Positions 1,115 through 34,166 of a stretch of DNA of 34,166 nt are shown here, piece after piece. The DNA lies in the IMG/VR virus record IMGVR_UViG_3300006030_000057, positions 1-34,166 of that record; one strand, given 5' to 3'. This stretch comes from a virus. A program made the position numbers and the translations under genes. Numbering within the stretch: position 1 is the first letter of the stretch; each line of letters begins with the position of its first letter. Below the pieces are notes generated by a model that was given only the letters and a program-made list of their open reading frames with translations, was not told the origin of the DNA and did no database searches.

Positions 1115-1618
1115 TCACTTCATGGCGAGCAGAAGCGCCACCAACTCCAGACGCTGCGCCTTGGACAGCGCCTTCGCCTCGGCAGCCAAGTGCTTCACCG
1201 ACGGCTTCGCAGCCGTCTTGCCCTTGCCAGTGCCCTTGCGGTTCGACGACTTCGACACCAGCGACGAAACCCACGCCGTGAACACGCCATCGAAGGCCTT
1301 GTACGCAGCCACAGCCTGAGCAGGCGACGCAAACGACGCCACCAGCGTCATCGAACGCGAGATCGTCGACTGCGAGATACCCGACGCCTTCGCAATCGCC
1401 GACTGGCTGCCCAACAGCACGCGCTCACCGTCGATGCCGACCGTGAAACGCTCCAGCACCTTCTCGTCACCCTTCGCCTTCGCATCGGCCACCTTGTTCA
1501 GGATGTCCGTCGCCATGCGGCCCACCGTGAAGTAGTGCGGCATCGCCGCATACTCGGTGCGGTCAATCTCGACCGCCGCAGCATTCATCTCCAGCAGCAT
1601 CGCAATGATGTCAGCCAT
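1115..1618 (-). CDS. HTH DNA-binding protein, candidate regulator
   Basis: A 167-residue soluble protein. Residues about 70-95 ('LGSQSAIAKASGISQSTISR') have the pattern of a helix-turn-helix, with the recognition helix at ISQSTISR. A Lys/Gly/Ser-rich linker (about 123-140) is followed by a short helical, Leu-rich C-terminus. The family is not identified; the HTH resembles those of ParB/KorB-like and other phage regulators. It stands alone: a purine-rich leader (GAGAGGGAGAGAGAC) precedes the ATG at 1618, and a palindrome at 1640-1656 lies 22 bp upstream. That suggests autoregulation and possibly control of the divergent rightward block. It is the only candidate repressor near the control region, but it could equally be a partition or modulator protein. 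Confidence 0.7.
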   Translation of the reverse strand: MADIIAMLLEMNAAAVEIDRTEYAAMPHYFTVGRMATDILNKVADAKAKGDEKVLERFTVGIDGERVLLGSQSAIAKASGISQSTISRSMTLVASFASPAQAVAAYKAFDGVFTAWVSSLVSKSSNRKGTGKGKTAAKPSVKHLAAEAKALSKAQRLELVALLLAMK

Positions 1619-1995: not shown

Positions 1996-1996
1996 A

Positions 1997-2026
1997 CCCG
2001 ACACTCACCTGTGGGTGTGTGTCGGG
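1997..2026 (+). terminator. Stem-loop followed by a short T-run
   Basis: CCCGACAC-T-CACC pairs with GGTG-T-GTGTCGGG (12 base pairs, one T-T mismatch) around the loop TGTG. It is followed after five bases by TTTT on the plus strand. It could attenuate rightward transcription ahead of the terminase or act as a binding site. Its CCGACAC/GTGTCGG core recurs in the inverted repeat at 33455-33490. Confidence 0.45.
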
Positions 2027-2038
2027 TGCTGGTTTTGT

Positions 2039-2065
2039 CCCCCTCCCCCCTTACCCCCCTCCCCC
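2039..2065 (-). repeat. 27-nt C-rich tract, G-quadruplex on the minus strand
   Basis: Runs of 5, 6, 6 and 5 C are separated by T, TTA and T. The minus strand therefore has four runs of five or more G. A tract of the same length and design lies at 33593-33619 in the other control region. Confidence 0.6.
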
Positions 2066-4793: not shown

Positions 4794-6386
4794 ATGGATC
4801 TTCAAGAACTGCTGAACGAGCAGGAGTGGCGGCGTTGTCGTGGCCCTGTGGACGCTGGAGTGAACGAGAAGCTGGACGCTTTCGTCTACTTCTGCACTAC
4901 GTACTGGTCGATCAAGCATCCAGAGCAGGGGCGCATCATGTTCGAGCTGCGTGAGGCGCAGATCGAGACCGTTCGCTCATGGTTGACAAACAGGTATTCG
5001 GTGGTGTTAAAGGCACGCCAGATCGGGTTCTCGACGCTGGCTGCTGCCTACGCGTTCTGGCTGGCGTTCTTCTGGAGTGACCGTTTCATCGTCATGCTGT
5101 CCAAGACGGAGCGTGAAGCAGCGAAACTGCTGTCGAAGTCGAAGTACGGGTTCAAGTTCCTGCCGTCGTGGATGCGCAAGCGTGGACCTCAGGTGGTGTC
5201 GGACAACCAGTTGAAGATGGTGTTCGACAACGACTCGGCTATCGAGTCGCTGCCGTCGAACAACGATCCTGCCCGTGGCGAGTCGGTGTATCTGGTGATT
5301 GTTGACGAGATGGCGTTCCTTCCGAATCCTGATGAGGCGTGGGCGTCGATCGAGCCGATCGCTGACGTCGGTGGTCGGGTGATCTGCCTGTCCACCGCAA
5401 ACGGTGCTGGCAACTTCTTCCACCAGTTGTGGATCGGGTCACAGACGAACACCAACAACTTCAAGGGCATCTTCTGGCCGTGGTCTGCTGGTGACCGCGA
5501 CGACGACTGGTACGAGTCGAAGGTGAAGAACATGCCTGCATGGCAGCTTCATCAGGAGTATCCGAGGAATCCTGATGAGGCGTTCATCATGTCGGGTAAC
5601 CCTGTGTTCGACGTGTCGAAGTTGACGGCGTTGCAGACCGAGGATCCTGTTCGTGGCTACATGAAGTTCACATCTCGCCGTCAGGCCGAGTTCGTCGAGG
5701 CTGTTGACGGCGAGTTGATGGTGTGGGATTTCCCTGCAGAGGGTGGCGTGTACACGATTGGGGCTGACGTCGCCGAAGGCTTGGGCCACGGCGACTACTC
5801 GTCAGCCCACATTGTTGACGCTCGAACTTTGACGGTTGTCGCAGCCTGGCATGGGCATATCGACCCCGATGTGTTCGGCGAGGTGCTGTGCGAGTTGGGC
5901 TGGTGGTACAACGGCTGCCTGATCGGCGTCGAAAACAACGGTCACGGTTTGACCACGTTGAAGTCGATGCAGCGATACGGGTACAAGAACATCTACCGCC
6001 AGCGAAGGCTGGCACAGCGGGTACAGGCTGAGACAGAGATACTCGGCTGGCGCACCACGGCGGCATCGAAGCCGCTGATGGTGGACGAGCTGGCTGGTGC
6101 GCTCCGTGACGAGGAGATCCTGCTGCTCGACATCTACACGATCAATGAGCTGAAGACGTTTGTGCGAGACACGAACGGCAAGATGCACGGCTCGCCGCAT
6201 GATGACCGTGTGATTTCGCTGGCTATCGCATGGCAGATGTTGAAGTTCGTGTGGCTGCCCGACTACGTGTCCGAGGCTCCCCCTCCTCGGTTCTCTCTGT
6301 CGTGGTTCGAGAAGTTCCAGCAGAACAACGATTTGCCGTTCAAACGGGTGCCAATCGGCGCATACAACACCGCAAAGAAGGTGTAA
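4794..6386 (+). CDS. terL: Terminase large subunit
   Basis: 530 residues, a typical length. The ATPase domain has an adenine/Walker A segment 'KARQIGFST' (73-81), Walker B 'LVIVDE' (167-172) and the coupling motif 'STANG' (200-204). The C-terminal RNase H-like nuclease has its acidic residues at D325 ('TIGADVAEGLGHGDYS'), E380 ('IGVENNGHG') and D470/D471 ('HDDRVISLAIAW'). It cuts concatemeric DNA and drives it into the prohead through the portal encoded at 7058. It starts nine bases after the previous gene. All catalytic motifs are intact, so it should be active. Confidence 0.96.
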   Translation: MDLQELLNEQEWRRCRGPVDAGVNEKLDAFVYFCTTYWSIKHPEQGRIMFELREAQIETVRSWLTNRYSVVLKARQIGFSTLAAAYAFWLAFFWSDRFIVMLSKTEREAAKLLSKSKYGFKFLPSWMRKRGPQVVSDNQLKMVFDNDSAIESLPSNNDPARGESVYLVIVDEMAFLPNPDEAWASIEPIADVGGRVICLSTANGAGNFFHQLWIGSQTNTNNFKGIFWPWSAGDRDDDWYESKVKNMPAWQLHQEYPRNPDEAFIMSGNPVFDVSKLTALQTEDPVRGYMKFTSRRQAEFVEAVDGELMVWDFPAEGGVYTIGADVAEGLGHGDYSSAHIVDARTLTVVAAWHGHIDPDVFGEVLCELGWWYNGCLIGVENNGHGLTTLKSMQRYGYKNIYRQRRLAQRVQAETEILGWRTTAASKPLMVDELAGALRDEEILLLDIYTINELKTFVRDTNGKMHGSPHDDRVISLAIAWQMLKFVWLPDYVSEAPPPRFSLSWFEKFQQNNDLPFKRVPIGAYNTAKKV

Positions 6387-6882: not shown

Positions 6883-7058
6883 CGTACAAAGAGGCTTTTC
6901 GGCGGGCGGTGGCAACCTTCATCGCTGGCGCTACTGCCGCGCCGTTGACCGCTGCAGCGTTCAACGTGTCGTTCTTCAAGGCTGCTGGTGTCGCAGGCCT
7001 GATCGCAGTCTGGAACTTCGCTGGCCGCGCAGTCCAGGCGTGGAACATCGGTGACTGA
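6879..7058 (+). CDS. r1t-type small holin
   Basis: 59 residues starting MTYKEAFRRAVATFIAGATA. The pattern of a basic amphipathic start, a hydrophobic Ala-rich segment, a short polar turn ('AFNVSFFKAAGVAGLIAVWNF') and a second hydrophobic segment resembles r1t-like holins of actinophages. It would form pores in the cytoplasmic membrane to time lysis. GGAGGGGTCGGA precedes the ATG. The start overlaps the previous stop (ATGA) and its TGA overlaps the portal ATG (TGATG). It is unusually far from the endolysin at 26156. Confidence 0.7.
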   Translation: MTYKEAFRRAVATFIAGATAAPLTAAAFNVSFFKAAGVAGLIAVWNFAGRAVQAWNIGD

Positions 7059-8842
7059 TGGCGCGTCCTTCGAACGCTGAGATCCTTCAGCGATACCAGA
7101 CGAAGATCAAGAAGTCCCGCAAGTGGCGGGACGACGAGGATTACGACGACACGTGGCGTCGTCTGATCCGCCTGTACCGAGGGCGGCACTACGAGTACTT
7201 CTCGGAGGAAGACAGGCTGCTGGTCAACATCTGCTTCTCGACGGTCAACGTGATCGCCCCGTCGGTTGCGGTGAACCATCCGAAGATCACTGTCGGTGCC
7301 GTCAAACCCGACGATGCCCCGAAGGCGATCATCACTGAAGCGGTGGTGAACTACTGGTGGCGTCACTACAAGGTGAAGCCCCAGTTCAGGCGTGCAGTCA
7401 AGGACTTCCTGATCGTCGGGCACGGTTGGTTGAAGTGCGGCTACCGCTACATCGAGGAGCAAGATGTCGCAGACGGGGACGAGTACTCGGATCCCGCCGC
7501 AAAGGGAAACGAGGTCACCCCAACGATCACGGTTGTCGAGGACAGGCCATTCGTTGAGCGTGTCTCCCCGTTCGACGTGTTCGTTGACCCTGATGCCACG
7601 TCGATGGATGACATCGGCTGGATCGCTCAGCGAATCCGCCGATCGTTGAAGGAAGTGAAGGCAGATCAGCGGTACTCGAAGAAGGCCCGCGAGGTGGCAT
7701 CGCCAACCTCGTGGCGCAAGACCGTGTACGACGGCTCCACCACTGACGTGTATGACACCGATGAGGGGTATGTCGAGGTGTGGGAGTTCTACGACATCAA
7801 GAAGAAGACGGTGTCGTCGTTCCTTGATTCGTCGGAGCATTTCCTGATTGCTCCACGTCCGATGCCGTACGCCTTTGGTCATCCGTTCGTGATGATCCGC
7901 AACTACGACGTCCCTGACGAGTTCTACCCGATCGGTGACCTAGAGGCGATCGAACCGTTGCAGCGTGAGCTGAACGAGACCCGTTCGCAGATGATGAACC
8001 ACCGTAAGCGGTATGCGCGCAAGTACCTGTACCGCGAGTCGTCGTTCGACGGCGACGGGCGTGCCGCCCTCGAGTCGGACGTCGACAACGAGATGGTGCC
8101 CGTGAAGGGCGATGGCCCGCTGTCTGAGGCTGTGGTGCCGATGCCTGCAGTGATCACTCCGCCCGAGTTCTACAACCAGTCGTCGATGATCAAGGACGAT
8201 GTGATCTCGACGACGGGTGTGTCCGAGTACATGCAGGGTCAGATGCCTGAGATCCGCCGTACGGCGACAGAAGCGGGCATCATCGCTGACGCCTCGAACG
8301 CCCGTGCTGCAGACAAGTTGGCGATCATCGAGCAGTCAATCTCGGATGTGGCCTACAGGATGGTGGCTCTCGCCCAGCAGTTTATGACTGGTGAGCAGGT
8401 GGCCCGTATCACTGGACGAGATGGTGAGCCGCTGTGGGTGACGTTCGATCCTGACTACATCGCTGGCGAGTTCGACTTTGAGGTCGAGGGCGGTTCAACG
8501 CAGCCGAACAACGAGTCATTTCGTCGCCAGTCTGCTCTGCAGATGGTCGACGCAATGGCACCGTTCATCCAGATGGGTGTCGTGGATCCACGTCAGCTCG
8601 TCACCCATGTGCTGCAGTTCGGTTTCGGGGTGAAGAACCCTGACAGCTTCCTCGCTCAGCAGCCGATGGCACCCGACCAGCAGGTGCCGCCCGACCAGCA
8701 GGCGCTGCCACCTGGTGCACCGATGCCCCCCGACCAGCAGATGCCGCCGCAGGATCCTGCTGCGGCAGGTATTCCGCCAGAGTTGATGCAGATGCTCATG
8801 GCTGGCGGAGGTCAGGGTGTAACGGGCATTCCTTCCATGTAG
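7058..8842 (+). CDS. Portal protein
   Basis: 594 residues. The N-terminal half has the portal-type lead ('WRRLIRLYRGRHYEYF', 'LLVNICFSTVNVIAPSVAV'), a wing segment with 'VERVSPFDVFVDPDATSMDD', and the long helical region near 'PLQRELNETRSQMMNHRKRY'. Beyond about residue 535 the sequence is a Pro/Gln tail with repeated PPDQQ units. Twelve copies form the DNA channel at the capsid vertex and dock the terminase. Its length and its place between terminase and scaffold fit. The Gln/Pro tail may contact the adaptor or DNA and could vary in copy number between relatives. Confidence 0.92.
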   Translation: MARPSNAEILQRYQTKIKKSRKWRDDEDYDDTWRRLIRLYRGRHYEYFSEEDRLLVNICFSTVNVIAPSVAVNHPKITVGAVKPDDAPKAIITEAVVNYWWRHYKVKPQFRRAVKDFLIVGHGWLKCGYRYIEEQDVADGDEYSDPAAKGNEVTPTITVVEDRPFVERVSPFDVFVDPDATSMDDIGWIAQRIRRSLKEVKADQRYSKKAREVASPTSWRKTVYDGSTTDVYDTDEGYVEVWEFYDIKKKTVSSFLDSSEHFLIAPRPMPYAFGHPFVMIRNYDVPDEFYPIGDLEAIEPLQRELNETRSQMMNHRKRYARKYLYRESSFDGDGRAALESDVDNEMVPVKGDGPLSEAVVPMPAVITPPEFYNQSSMIKDDVISTTGVSEYMQGQMPEIRRTATEAGIIADASNARAADKLAIIEQSISDVAYRMVALAQQFMTGEQVARITGRDGEPLWVTFDPDYIAGEFDFEVEGGSTQPNNESFRRQSALQMVDAMAPFIQMGVVDPRQLVTHVLQFGFGVKNPDSFLAQQPMAPDQQVPPDQQALPPGAPMPPDQQMPPQDPAAAGIPPELMQMLMAGGGQGVTGIPSM

Positions 8843-28815: not shown

Positions 28816-29234
28816 GCTTTCACCGCTTCGACTTTCACCACCTGTGTGTCGTCCTCCCATGCGACTCCGTTGAGTCCATCGAGAACGGTCTTGATGAGAT
28901 TGTCGATGTCGGAACGCAGCACGATCTTGACGTCGTTGCTGACGGGGGTGACGATGACGGCCGAGCCGTCTTCGTCGAATGCGAGGTAGACGTGAAGTTG
29001 GGTGCCCTTCGGGTAGAGCGGCCCACCAGAGGTCTTCCACGTGTCGGCGATGCGGCTTTCCGCCCGCTGTGTCTTGTGCGGCGTGTAGATGACGCCTGAT
29101 GCACGGTTGATGCGGGGTCGCTCCTTGGGTTGGGGGCGTCCATCTATGAAGATGGAGTGTTCCCGTAGACCCGCTGGACGAGCTTTACGATCTCCGTTTC
29201 GCCGCGTAGTCCGCGCTTCATGTACTTCCCCCAT
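28812..29234 (-). CDS. rusA: RusA-type Holliday junction resolvase
   Basis: 140 residues. RusA motifs: 'FIDGRPQPKERPR' (29-41), 'YTPHKTQRAE' (50-59), then 'RSDIDNLIKTVLDGLNGVAWEDDTQV' (107-132). The acidic residues D109, D111 and D128/D129 and the conserved K115 fit the active site. It would resolve branched DNA before packaging. ATG 29234 has AGGAGG ten bases upstream; no usable start exists between there and the conserved core, so it really overlaps the primase gene by 91 bp. Confidence 0.9.
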   Translation of the reverse strand: MGEVHEARTTRRNGDRKARPAGLREHSIFIDGRPQPKERPRINRASGVIYTPHKTQRAESRIADTWKTSGGPLYPKGTQLHVYLAFDEDGSAVIVTPVSNDVKIVLRSDIDNLIKTVLDGLNGVAWEDDTQVVKVEAVKA

Positions 29235-30046
29235 CGCCAGTCGGCCTCCTCAAGAACGAGCAGGGCATCACTGGGGGTGATGCCTGCTTTGACACATTCG
29301 TATGCGAGATGCGTGATCGTCGTTGAGCGGTCACGGCCCTCTAGCGGGCCTTCCCTGTAGATGACCTTGCCCAGCGGTGTCAGCATTGACGCTGCTGTCT
29401 GCACGTCGCCTGACTGCCTGCGAAGGTCGATCGTCGGAGGCGGTGGTGGCGTGTAGAAGGCGGCGACTCCCGCTATCTCGTCGGGTGTCGCTCGCTGTTC
29501 GAGCGCCCTAGAGATGAAGTCATCTAGCGACAATGGTACCGAAGCACCCTTCACACCCGTGTCGATGATGCGGCGTTCGCTGACACCACCTGGGTATGGG
29601 AGGCGGACGTAGTTACCGACGCCGTTGCCGAGTTGTGTCTGTTTCGGGTTGACCTCTTTCGGTGGGACTTGGATGACTTGATGGGCTGCGAGGAACATGT
29701 TGCGCATGTCTTCGGCGGCGACAAGCTCGGTGGCGAATACCCACACGTGCCAGCCTTTGCGTGTCCGTTCGAGCCACGGGGTGATGCCGATCTGTCGGAG
29801 GGCTTCGTGGAGCGAGTAGGCGTCTTCGGGTTCGGGGTAGTCGATGTCAGAGCATCCCCACACGCAGCGTGCGACACCGTTGACGGTGACGCACGGGTAC
29901 ACGCCGATGTGTGGGCCTTCCTCGAGGTGTGCTCGGAACTGGTTGATGGTGAGCGGCTGCTTGACGCATCCGCCTTCCCACGACCCGTAGCAGTCGCCTC
30001 GACCGCGGAACAGGGTGACGTAGTCGTTGACGATGCTGTCGTTCAT
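29144..30046 (-). CDS. AEP-type (TOTE/primpol-like) DNA primase
   Basis: 300 residues from ATG 30046 (MNDSIVNDYVTLFRGRGDCYG); the frame is open to 30424 but the extension is shadow. Archaeo-eukaryotic primase signs: 'GCSDIDYPEP' (D67, D69 metal ligands), 'RKGWHVWVF' (96-104, the conserved His at 100), and 'GNGVGNYVRLPYPGG' (140-154). A C-terminal helical domain (about 225-300, 'GRDRSTTITHLAYECVKAGI') looks like a PriCT domain. It primes, and perhaps extends, phage DNA beside the DnaB-type helicase. No DNA polymerase is seen nearby. Assignment is by motif pattern. Confidence 0.8.
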   Translation of the reverse strand: MNDSIVNDYVTLFRGRGDCYGSWEGGCVKQPLTINQFRAHLEEGPHIGVYPCVTVNGVARCVWGCSDIDYPEPEDAYSLHEALRQIGITPWLERTRKGWHVWVFATELVAAEDMRNMFLAAHQVIQVPPKEVNPKQTQLGNGVGNYVRLPYPGGVSERRIIDTGVKGASVPLSLDDFISRALEQRATPDEIAGVAAFYTPPPPPTIDLRRQSGDVQTAASMLTPLGKVIYREGPLEGRDRSTTITHLAYECVKAGITPSDALLVLEEADWRWGKYMKRGLRGETEIVKLVQRVYGNTPSS

Positions 30047-30303
30047 TGCAGTCTCCGTGTGGAGCGCACCATCTCGTTCGGGATGTGTAGTACCGAGTCG
30101 ACGAGGCCGTCGCTGATTGCTTCGGACTGGGCGATGGAGATGTGTCCTGCTTTGGCGTTCTGCAGCAGTGTTCCGACGGTGCGGACGAGGTACGGGTCGT
30201 CGTTGATTTCGGAGCGGTCGAACCATGTGTTGCCGCTGACGGGTTCGGTGTGGGCGTCGGCCCACACGACTTCGTACAGTTCGGGGGTTTCGGGGTTCAC
30301 CAT
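30043..30303 (-). CDS. Small protein between helicase and primase
   Basis: 86 residues (MVNPETPELYEVVWADAHTE). I recognise no domain. It is acidic at the start and helical at the C-terminus ('ISIAQSEAISDGLVDSVLHIP'). It overlaps the helicase end by seven bases and the primase start by ATGA, so its expression is tied to both. It could be a helicase loader or primase accessory, but the size is small and no motif supports this. Confidence 0.65.
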   Translation of the reverse strand: MVNPETPELYEVVWADAHTEPVSGNTWFDRSEINDDPYLVRTVGTLLQNAKAGHISIAQSEAISDGLVDSVLHIPNEMVRSTRRLQ

Positions 30304-31349
30304 GCCATCCTGTGTTGCTCGGGGAGTTCGCCACGGAGCGGTGACAGCCGTCCTGTTCCGTGTTCGATCTCGAAGTCGATGCCGTCTTCGATGAGTTCGC
30401 TACCAACCCGCTTGCACTTGACAAGGTTGAGTGTGACGGTGTGCTTGTGGATGTGTTCGTCGTGGACGAGCGATGCTCGTTCTTCCATCAGTCTCTCTGC
30501 TGATGCTTGACGACCTGACGACGCCAGACGTTCGTCGATGTCACGAATGCGGCTGCGGATCTCAGCCAGTTTGCGACGGACACCGATGATGTGGGTCGCC
30601 TGCTGTTCGCCACCGAAAGCGCCTGACGAGATCGTGATCTGCCTGCCTTCCGCACCTGACGTTCGTGACGTTTGGTGCAGAACCAGCAGTGGGACGTCAC
30701 GACGCCGCCCCCATGCTTTGACGGTGTTCGCCTTCGATGCCACATCCTCTCCGCCTCCTTGGAGCAGTTCGAGGTAGTCGAGAACTACGAGGTCTTCTTT
30801 CGCTCCCCAGTGGGTTGCGATCTCGTCGGTGGCCTTCTCCATGTCGACCACGCTGATCGGGTCGTCGATGACCGCTAGGTGCGGGAACCGTGTCTCGGCG
30901 GTTTCGCGCAGCAGCTCGATGGCGTCACGGTCATCGGCAGCGATGCGGTTCTCCAACTCGAGTGCGTTCATGTTGTGGATGAGGCAGGTGAGTTTGATGA
31001 GCGTCAACGTCCTCGGCTCGTCGGGGCAGTAGTAGATGACTCGACGATTGGCGTTGTGGCGCAGCATTTCCATGAGTGCAAGCGTCTTGCCGCTGTGGCT
31101 GTAGCCGACAACCATGCACACTTCGCCAGGTGCGATGCCTCGCATCTGGCGGTCGATGTCAGCGAACCCTGTGTACACCTGTTCGTGTGGTGACTGTGCC
31201 CAGCGGACGAACTCGTCGGCTGCGTCAGCGAGCGGCTTGTAGTAGCGGAACTCTGCTGGTTCGGTGGGAACAAGAAGGGGAGCCGGCCGTTCGGCCAGCT
31301 CCCCCTTCTTTGCCAACTCCCACCGTTCGGTGATGGTGGCTGCGTCCAT
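30297..31349 (-). CDS. DnaB-like replicative helicase (RecA-fold ATPase)
   Basis: 350 residues. Walker A 'GYSHSGKT' (82-89), the catalytic Glu in 'YCPDEP' (about 111), Walker B 'LVVLDYLELL' (187-196), sensor-like 'LVLHQTSRT' (222-230), then 'GAFGGEQQATHIIGV' (243-257), the DnaB-type 'xxxEQxA' motif. A long helical insert ('RSRIRDIDERLASSGRQ') follows. There is no DnaB N-terminal domain, so it is a short phage helicase of the RepA/DnaB C-domain class. It would unwind DNA with the AEP primase two genes downstream. ATG 31349 follows the previous stop closely. Confidence 0.88.
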   Translation of the reverse strand: MDAATITERWELAKKGELAERPAPLLVPTEPAEFRYYKPLADAADEFVRWAQSPHEQVYTGFADIDRQMRGIAPGEVCMVVGYSHSGKTLALMEMLRHNANRRVIYYCPDEPRTLTLIKLTCLIHNMNALELENRIAADDRDAIELLRETAETRFPHLAVIDDPISVVDMEKATDEIATHWGAKEDLVVLDYLELLQGGGEDVASKANTVKAWGRRRDVPLLVLHQTSRTSGAEGRQITISSGAFGGEQQATHIIGVRRKLAEIRSRIRDIDERLASSGRQASAERLMEERASLVHDEHIHKHTVTLNLVKCKRVGSELIEDGIDFEIEHGTGRLSPLRGELPEQHRMAW

Positions 31350-32154: not shown

Positions 32155-32967
32155 TTACTGCGCATGGCAGCCACGGCACACCGACCAGAACGGGCACCAC
32201 GTTTCCGAACACAGGAACCCTGTGTCGTTCATCGGCCACTCCTGCTCGACGCCGAGGGCGAGGTTGAGTGCGACCAGTGGGCGGATGCTGCGACGCAGCC
32301 ACTCGAAGTGGCTGGCGTCTCGAGTGACGGGGACGATCTGACTGCCGCCGTCACGCACCACCACACCGAAGTTGAACTCGACAGGCCACGACAGCCAGCC
32401 GTTGGCGATCGCCGCACCCGCGTACATGGTGCTCTGGATGTCCTGCTTCTGTTTCTCGGCGGGTCGGTATCGGCGAGATGCTGTCTTCCAGTCCCACAGC
32501 TGCTTGTCGGTCACCAAGTCAATGGTGCCTTCGCCATACACCTTGACGATCTCGCCGCTCGCAGTTGTGAACGCGTCCATCGGGTATGTGAACCTCTGCT
32601 CGACTCCGATGACGTCTCCAACGATTGTGGGTCGGATGTCGGTGTCCCAGTTGGTGATTGCCTTGGCAACGAGTTCGGGGATCTCGTGGCGTTGCAGCCG
32701 AACCCATCGCATTGTTCCGCTGTCGGCGATCGTGGCAAACTCGTCGATCGCACGCTCGTTCATCTCGGCGATGCTGGCTTCGGGGCTGGTGATCTTGTGT
32801 TCGATCGCAGCGTGGACTGCGGTGCCGAACGCGGTCAGTTCGTTCGGTGTGTTCCAGTCGGGCATCGTCATCGCTCGACGGCCACGTTCGGCGCACATCG
32901 TGGCGTCCTTGAGCCAGGACTGTCGGACGTACACGTTGATGCTGTTCTCGGTGTGTTCAACCCTCAC
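32155..32967 (-). CDS. Cas4/RecB-like Fe-S nuclease
   Basis: 270 residues. PD-(D/E)XK nuclease motifs: 'GTAVHAAIEHK' (48-58, motif I His), 'GEGTIDLVTDKQLWDWKT' (D150, D159-x-K161), 'KQDIQSTMYAG' (Gln and Tyr of motif QxxxY). An Fe-S cluster is likely: C25 near the N-terminus and C253, C258, C264, C267 at the C-terminus ('CSETWCPFWSVCRGC'). This is the Cas4/AddB-type layout. It would trim DNA ends for recombination with RusA. It overlaps the previous gene by ATGA. It is not linked to any CRISPR array. Confidence 0.87.
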   Translation of the reverse strand: MRVEHTENSINVYVRQSWLKDATMCAERGRRAMTMPDWNTPNELTAFGTAVHAAIEHKITSPEASIAEMNERAIDEFATIADSGTMRWVRLQRHEIPELVAKAITNWDTDIRPTIVGDVIGVEQRFTYPMDAFTTASGEIVKVYGEGTIDLVTDKQLWDWKTASRRYRPAEKQKQDIQSTMYAGAAIANGWLSWPVEFNFGVVVRDGGSQIVPVTRDASHFEWLRRSIRPLVALNLALGVEQEWPMNDTGFLCSETWCPFWSVCRGCHAQ

Positions 32968-33395
32968 AGATTCACCGCCTTCACACGGCGACGCAGGTGC
33001 GCCATGTACGACGCCGAGATGTCGACGTCGTACGTTGCTTTCACTTCGGCCCTGATCTCGGGTGACGGTCGACCTTCGCTGACGAGCGTGGCGATCAGCG
33101 CACGCACCTCAGGGGTGATCGTCTTCGACACGGCAGCGCCGACAAGCGGCTGCACGTACGGTGCACGCTTGCCGTCGACGACAACACGCACCGTGTTGTC
33201 GGTCAGGTCATGCACCGTGTCGTACGCCTGCAGCAGGTGCTCGAAGAACGTGGCCCACTCATCGCCCGTCTCGGGGTGGCGAACTTCACCGAACAGGTAC
33301 GTCGCCAACTCTCGGCCCATCCAGCCGTCCATGATCGGATCGACAAACGGTGTGCCTTTCGGTGTACCAGTCTGGATTGACGTCAGGTTGCCCAT
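32964..33395 (-). CDS. HTH-containing protein, first gene of the replication operon
   Basis: 143 residues (MGNLTSIQTGTPKGTPFVDP). The C-terminal 45 residues ('ITPEVRALIATLVSEGRPSPEIRAEVKATYDVDISASYMAHLRRR') have the layout of a recombinase-like helix-turn-helix. The N-terminal part ('DPIMDGWMGRELATYLFGEVRHP') is unrecognised. The TTGCC-ACATG-GGCAA inverted repeat surrounds its start codon and might affect translation. An upstream inverted repeat at 33455-33490 could be its operator. It may regulate the operon or help initiate replication. Confidence 0.6.
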   Translation of the reverse strand: MGNLTSIQTGTPKGTPFVDPIMDGWMGRELATYLFGEVRHPETGDEWATFFEHLLQAYDTVHDLTDNTVRVVVDGKRAPYVQPLVGAAVSKTITPEVRALIATLVSEGRPSPEIRAEVKATYDVDISASYMAHLRRRVKAVNL

Positions 33396-33454: not shown

Positions 33455-33490
33455 GAACGGTGTCGGTGATTCCAGTTGCCGACACCGTTC
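33455..33490 (+). terminator. Perfect 12-bp inverted repeat with T-tail
   Basis: GAACGGTGTCGG (33455-33466) and CCGACACCGTTC (33479-33490) are perfect complements separated by 12 bases, followed on the plus strand by ATATTTTTTG. It has the form of a rightward Rho-independent terminator. However, no rightward gene ends here, so it may block antisense transcription or be an operator for the leftward operon 60 bp downstream. Confidence 0.6.
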
Positions 33491-33554
33491 ATATTTTTTG
33501 TGGACTGTGTGTGGGGGACGGTCGGCTACCGCCTCCTGTCGTTGCTGTTCCCTC

Positions 33555-33578
33555 CGTCCGCCCCTCTAAGGGCGGACG
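33555..33578. terminator. Hairpin after the integrase gene
   Basis: CGTCCGCCC (33555-33563) and GGGCGGACG (33570-33578) form a perfect 9-bp stem with the loop CTCTAA. It lies 70 bp beyond the integrase stop (reading leftward). No clear T-run follows, so it may be a weak terminator or an RNA stem. Confidence 0.45.
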
Positions 33579-33592
33579 ATGGGAACCCTGTG

Positions 33593-33619
33593 CCCCCACC
33601 CCCTTTATCCCCCTCCCCC
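33593..33619 (-). repeat. 27-nt C-rich tract, matching 2039-2065
   Basis: Runs of 5, 5, 5 and 5 C separated by A, TTTAT and T. The minus strand can form a G-quadruplex. Its length and layout match the tract at 2039-2065, and both lie in the phage's two control regions. Confidence 0.6.
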
Positions 33620-33647
33620 ACGGTAGGAAAGGGATCGGGAACCCGTG

Positions 33648-34166
33648 TCAATCCGTGTTGATTGCCGACAAGCGCGTACGCCAATCAGCCAACCGTCCAG
33701 CGGACTTTACGTACCGCCGAGTTGTGTCGATGTCCGAGTGTCCCACGACGTCCGATACGACCTCGATGGGCACCCCGCAACGCAGCAGGTTGGTGACACA
33801 GGTGTGCCGCAAGGCGTGCGGAGAGAACGCCCGCTCAGGCAGGCCCGCATCCTTCAGCAACTTGGCCAGACGCTTGTTGATGACACCTGGGTCGGGCAGG
33901 TTCGGGTCGGTGAATGACGAACGCACCAGCGTCGTCGCTGACGCAGGCTTGTCCATCGTGATGAGGCACCTTTCACTCGCTCGGTACTTCGCTTGGGCGA
34001 TCACCATGTCTGCCCATTCGCGATGATTGGGAAGCACGTTCGGCAGGCCAGCGGACAGGATCCGTGCCATCTCCACGAACTCGACCGCATCTTCATCGCC
34101 GCCCTTTCGCTCGAGGTACAGCAGAAGGCCGCGATCACCATCCACTTGATGGGGGGCGATCGAAAC
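33648..34166 (-). CDS. int: Tyrosine integrase, C-terminal part (cut by window edge)
   Basis: At least 172 residues; the frame stays open to the window end, so the N-terminus and the first catalytic Arg are missing. Visible catalytic elements: the beta-hairpin Lys ('LERKGGDEDAVEF'), box II 'HALRHTCVTNLL' (His and Arg), 'VGHSDIDTTRRY' with the His and the nucleophilic Tyr, then 'VKSAGRLADW'. It would catalyse site-specific integration and excision at attP/attB. A GTG at 34145 is only an internal codon. The enzyme implies a temperate phage. The intergenic region downstream (33396-33647) is a possible attP site. Confidence 0.92.
   Translation of the reverse strand, partial: VSIAPHQVDGDRGLLLYLERKGGDEDAVEFVEMARILSAGLPNVLPNHREWADMVIAQAKYRASERCLITMDKPASATTLVRSSFTDPNLPDPGVINKRLAKLLKDAGLPERAFSPHALRHTCVTNLLRCGVPIEVVSDVVGHSDIDTTRRYVKSAGRLADWRTRLSAINTD

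Follow-up and report, generated by a model that had tools for sequence, protein, structure and literature searches.

Two matched 27-nt tracts in the genome of an uncultured phage (an IMG/VR virus record of 34,166 bases, analysed whole and called the window below) are best explained, tentatively and from sequence comparison, as the G elements of two copies of one cis-regulatory module, which would act as a promoter-proximal G-quadruplex, H-DNA or R-loop switch on both early operons. We hold this reading about as readily as we doubt it. One copy (M1, with tract 2) would be placed at the replication operon, in its promoter and leader, and the other (M2, with tract 1) correspondingly at a second leftward operon, which is divergent from the terminase; the label 'early' is inferred from gene content. 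Regulation by G-quadruplexes or triplexes has often been proposed from sequence alone, but here comparative evidence bears on it, as the same element is found at two operons in many diverged phages and matched changes in run length distinguish a fold-back structure from an ordinary G-rich tract. The pair is a small natural system for testing whether bacterial viruses time early transcription via DNA structure and supercoiling, and it supplies a sequence rule for recognising such elements.

The two modules in the window

The tract coordinates and letters given in the earlier note match the window exactly, the plus strand reading CCCCCTCCCCCCTTACCCCCCTCCCCC at 2039-2065 and CCCCCACCCCCTTTATCCCCCTCCCCC at 33593-33619. 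A strict four-run pattern has two matches in the window and none in 300 first-order Markov simulations of it; both 27-nt tracts are genuine and exact, and chance does not account for them. Read on the minus strand, each tract stands as a G-rich stretch at the front of a leftward block of genes, whose non-template strand carries the G runs. The tracts and the hairpins that follow them are:

2039..2065, minus strand: tract 1, the M2 G element, reading GGGGGAGGGGGG-TAA-GGGGGGAGGGGG; relatives have an element at this place too, beside TerS and facing leftward
1996..2027, minus strand: M2 leader hairpin, ACCCGACAC-A-CACC-CACA-GGTG-A-GTGTCGGGT; -24.4 kcal/mol, z = -4.9
33593..33619, minus strand: tract 2, the M1 G element, reading GGGGGAGGGGG-ATAAA-GGGGGTGGGGG; relatives have a homologous element at the same place
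33547..33586, minus strand: M1 leader hairpin, GTTCCC-ATC-GTCCGCCC-TTAGAG-GGGCGGAC-GGA-GGGAAC; -33.8 kcal/mol, z = -7.1; relatives also have a hairpin at this place

Reading leftward, the order at tract 1 is ATGTAAC, the tract itself (G5AG6-TAA-G6AG5), ACAAAACCAGC, hairpin 1996-2027 and gene 1115-1618, and at tract 2 it is TACCGT, the tract itself (G5AG5-ATAAA-G5TG5), hairpin 33547-33586 and the HTH-like and replication genes. Both tracts conform to the G-quadruplex motif (four G runs of at least 3, loops of 1-7 nt), with runs of 5-6 and loops of 1-5-1 and 1-3-1. By sequence they also qualify as H-DNA-type purine mirrors: tract 1 is a perfect purine mirror apart from its TAA centre, and tract 2 sets one A opposite T, a pairing that the purine-motif triplex tolerates. 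The genes concerned are as follows:

32964..33395, minus strand: first gene of the M1 operon, an HTH-like protein of 143 aa with a homologue of 27% identity in relative G024
32155..32967, minus strand: PD-(D/E)XK exonuclease (PF12705, E = 2.4e-12; phrog_69)
30297..31349, minus strand: DnaB-like helicase of the M1 operon (PF03796, E = 1.4e-12)
29144..30424, minus strand: AEP-type primase of the M1 operon (PF22548, E = 1.9e-13)
1115..1618, minus strand: first leftward gene downstream of M2, an open reading frame for an HTH-like protein of 167 aa, with a leader of ~420 nt
4794-6386: TerL
7058-8842: portal
33648-34145, minus strand: tyrosine integrase, cut by the right end of the window

Profile searches with the proteins of 32964..33395 and 1115..1618 gave no Pfam or PHROG match for either.

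The hairpins look like RNA elements, because over 64 modules the mean hairpin z was -3.4 downstream of the G element versus -0.6 upstream, and because compensatory changes were seen in a set of five (3 cells altered on both sides, a modest signal given that 10 of 500 shuffles scored as high). The earlier note's stem at 1997-2026 is real, with exact limits of 1996-2027. The stem at 33455-33490, which it had placed beside tract 2, exists but is not the structural partner of that tract and was rejected as such; it resembles a rightward terminator, T run included, and opposes the leftward operon, and the hairpin adjoining tract 2 is that at 33547-33586. Also rejected was the GTGTCGG/CCGACAC core as a shared signal, since the 7-mer is common in the window (17 occurrences, and six of its complement). 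A search of Rfam at the gathering score matched no known RNA family, and each module has a single main hairpin rather than the two stem-loops of a put-type antitermination RNA.

Conservation and turnover among relatives

Relatives were obtained by way of TerL, by a pattern scan of viral contigs and by exonuclease alignment (80 loci), the last being the clean test, as these loci were chosen without regard to G runs. Wherever a G element was present upstream of the gene in the 80 exonuclease-fetched loci, it was on the sense strand. The classes seen there were G4-6 A G5 N6 G5 T G4-6, G4AG6ATAAAG6TG4, G7AAAG7 and G6N10G6; over all relatives the designs drift, with G7-ACTATA-G7, G7AAAG7, G4AG6..G6TG4 and G7AG3TAG3AG7 as examples. 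Among the TerL relatives, which were likewise picked regardless of G runs, the design of tract 2 recurs in L024, L026, L041 and L044, where it lies 8-9 kb upstream of TerL. In complete or long relatives a second element stands just outside TerS and points leftward, most often as G7-ACTATA-G7 with a hairpin after it.

The earlier note had proposed looking for both tracts in relatives; of 40 records tabulated, 17 carry a G element at each of the two places. Nine of the 40 have the G element only beside TerS and six only at the replication operon (in three of these the TerS side may be outside the contig), and the counts include elements in records that wrap round the ends or have no TerL. The remaining 8 records have it at neither place, among them G001 and G002, whose TerL is 73% identical; a still closer partial contig covers neither place. 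The G elements are thus gained and lost from lineage to lineage, and the eight records with neither, G001 and G002 included, make them dispensable or replaceable. The four-run design and the equal 27-nt length hold in this genome, but in relatives the lengths at the two places usually differ, and the equality is particular to this genome. The earlier note would have given up its claim on finding a single tract or sequence drift in relatives. Both do occur, but the drift keeps the mirror-symmetric G runs, the orientation and the hairpin, and thus refines the claim of a paired element rather than refuting it. The suggestion of a shared regulator, or of co-ordinated early or replication control, fits the paired arrangement of the 17 records.

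Scans of GTDB genomes with the exonuclease and TerL found no close relative and no host. The nearest annotated phage by TerL is MW202803.1, at 51% identity, which is without a G element at its exonuclease. A literature search, with most subscription journals outside its coverage, found no description of such phage elements.

Three G-free exonuclease-operon leaders (L120, L122 and L127) have a GCGAGC-N3-GCGAGC repeat or similar at the place of the G element, with the hairpin kept. A 47.6 kb contig (L101) carries, near its end at 204-340, two tandem units of G element and hairpin with runs of 4-5-5-4 and 4-4-4-4, both mirror-symmetric.

Mirror symmetry of the G runs

Of 63 distinct elements in a promoter-like context, 61 had outer G runs of equal length versus 19.6 by shuffling, a statistic inflated by relatedness among the sequences; in all 32 four-run elements the two outer runs matched each other, as did the two inner runs. 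Six run-length types were found (4-5-5-4, 4-6-6-4, 5-5-5-5, 5-6-6-5, 6-5-5-6 and 7-3-3-7). At the first interruption the base is always A, and at the second it is T or A; the pattern of the DNA scan preset the A and T interruptions as well as part of the inner runs, and here the protein-fetched loci therefore carry the weight. On an exonuclease tree of 19 rows, at least 3 changes in outer-run length are forced, each occurring on both sides. Three matches to the pattern (L091, L106 and L115) were discounted as chance occurrences, having asymmetric outer runs and neither promoter-like nor hairpin context; with them included, a permutation test gave 33 of 36 versus 15.8.

A fold-back purine triplex, in which the 3' arm serves as third strand, needs mirror symmetry, and a quadruplex does not. 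By established triplex rules, the symmetry of run lengths together with an A and then a T or A as interruptions is what a purine-motif triplex with a 3' third strand would require. We therefore considered a more specific form of the switch, a conserved paired H-DNA promoter element, in which a purine mirror repeat whose arms change length together would form a triplex at both early operon starts under negative supercoiling. We regard it as doubtful; if true, it would be a natural triplex switch backed by arm-to-arm covariation. The phage elements share with H-DNA, reportedly described by Mirkin in 1987, and with purine-motif (H-r) mirror repeats the purine-rich mirror and the interruptions (A, then A or T), but many phage copies also fit the quadruplex rules, and their arms are short. 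The ITxF intrastrand triplex motifs are likewise triplex-capable motifs of bacteria, but they are single-strand triplex repeats with many genomic copies, in contrast to one element per promoter here (PMC4666352).

Promoter context and competing explanations

Promoter-like sequences adjoin both G elements:

33620..33625, minus strand: -10-like TACCGT of a putative promoter, directly abutting the M1 G element
33646..33651, minus strand: TTGACA in sequence, 20 bp from the -10-like TACCGT and overlapping the integrase stop codon
2066..2072, minus strand: ATGTAAC, a shared promoter-side motif immediately before the M2 G element; relatives have GTAACG, GTTACG or GTTACA there

Among 40 M1-type elements, 36 are preceded by a TANNNT ending 0-16 nt before the G element, versus 7.9 by shuffling; at M2 of the window there is no TANNNT before the element. 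The gap between the -10-like hexamer and the G element is variable, from 0 to 15 nt: the hexamer abuts the element in tract 2 of the window and in the G7AAAG7 class, and mostly lies 8-15 nt upstream in class I elements. Spacers between TTGACA and TANNNT are 19-20 bp in many relatives and 9-10 bp in others, mostly not the usual 17, and a simple sigma-70-type promoter scan (a -10-like hexamer ~17 bp from a -35-like one) gave no hits. The long 19-20 bp spacer could mark a twist-sensitive or activator-dependent promoter. Spacers of 19-20 bp are also seen in G-free leaders such as L122.

From these sequences we infer the promoter assignments, with RNA polymerase starting at or just before the G element. 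Transcription starts ~7 nt after a -10 hexamer, so that with an abutting hexamer the RNA would begin inside the first G run, and an RNA quadruplex cannot then be the common denominator of the classes. Because the predicted start falls inside the first G run in several classes, the G part probably acts as DNA. Negative supercoiling, which would be strongest between divergent operons and is expected at M2 because M2 lies between them, would together with promoter opening expose the G-rich non-template strand. Once exposed, this strand could adopt a quadruplex or a purine-motif triplex, with the C-rich template paired to the nascent RNA in an R-loop, and the folded structure would throttle or time new initiation at the two early promoters jointly. 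The hairpin would act in the transcript, for instance by protecting the 5' end or shaping the leader.

Precedent comes from engineered plasmids transcribed in vitro by T7 polymerase, on which a non-template quadruplex-forming sequence near the start suppresses transcription via a G4/R-loop when the DNA is supercoiled but not when it is linear, with the strongest effect at 10-20 bp from the start (PMC11982182). The phage elements resemble these in having non-template G runs within tens of bp of the start, with supercoiling-dependence as the proposed mechanism, but they occur naturally, as a pair conserved at two operons of a phage, and each has matched run lengths and a hairpin after it. We favour the supercoiling-dependent DNA-structure switch because of this precedent and the position of M2 between divergent operons.

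Its main rival is an element acting in the leader RNA, where a 5' G-quadruplex and hairpin would stabilise the mRNA, block translation or modify RNA polymerase, like HK022 put. This is possible, if on the weak side: the G runs are on the sense strand beside a strong, conserved leader hairpin, and most class I hexamers lie far enough upstream (8-15 nt) for the whole G element to be transcribed, but an abutting hexamer would yield RNA without the full set of G runs, and an RNA quadruplex has no need of mirror-symmetric run lengths. The HK022 putL/putR pair establishes two similar promoter-proximal elements on two early operons as a known phage strategy, and the modules of the window share with it this arrangement of two copies and the leader stem-loops, but put consists of two stem-loops without G runs, and each module here shows G runs and one main hairpin (PMC9378689).

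It is unlikely that the G element is a duplex DNA operator at which a phage or host protein represses or activates both promoters. Two similar sites over the expected start of two promoters would suit such a role, as would their replacement by other sequence in some relatives (e.g. the GCGAGC repeats), in the manner of immunity specificities. However, the symmetry is mirror and not dyad, protein recognition leaves the shift of run lengths in matched pairs unexplained, and relatives offer a separate dyad candidate, TGAGAATSATTCTCA, upstream of M2. This dyad stands just before the GTAACG/GTTACG motif in L044, L026 and L212, and is a candidate operator.

R-loop-primed DNA synthesis is known from the R-loop origins of T4 and from mitochondrial CSBII. 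The tracts might by analogy be replication origins, at which G-rich RNA from the promoter would form a persistent R-loop on the C-rich template and prime synthesis, and this we consider quite unlikely. Tract 2 heads the exonuclease/helicase/primase operon and non-template G runs favour R-loops, but with the element at the extreme 5' end little primer would be left, genomes with one or neither element exist, and no skew signature was resolved. CSBII has a GGGGGAGGGGGG-type run just downstream of its promoter as well, but further downstream than here, and it terminates transcription to prime replication.

In Bacillus subtilis pyrG, slippage in a G run at the start of transcription senses nucleotide levels. 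That polymerase stutters in the same way here, giving G-extended RNA as a sensor, seems very improbable; G runs directly follow TACAAT, TATCGT or TACCGT in one class, with a C-containing hairpin next, but the second half of the element and its mirror symmetry would go unexplained, and class I starts are expected ahead of the G runs. A packaging (cos/pac) or integration (attP) site, as the earlier note had suggested, we reject: tract 2 is just past the integrase stop codon and tract 1 near TerS, but the module stays where an Rpf-like transglycosylase or other gene replaces the integrase upstream, the elements face away from TerS, the TerS-side element is absent in some records (6 replication-only, 8 with neither), and a tRNA search of the window found none.

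Other sequence features lie near M2. A further G-rich run, GGGGTTGGGGTTGGGGGTTGGG, is found on the plus strand at 1863-1884 of the window, near a AAGGGACTC motif at 1822-1830; relatives have GGGGGGCATGGGGGGG-type elements on the same relative strand as this run, and a AAGGGACTC/GAGTCCCTT motif 0.8-1.9 kb from M2. A perfect palindrome, TTGCGTGCGCAA, occupies 2072-2083 of the window, between the promoter side of M2 and TerS.
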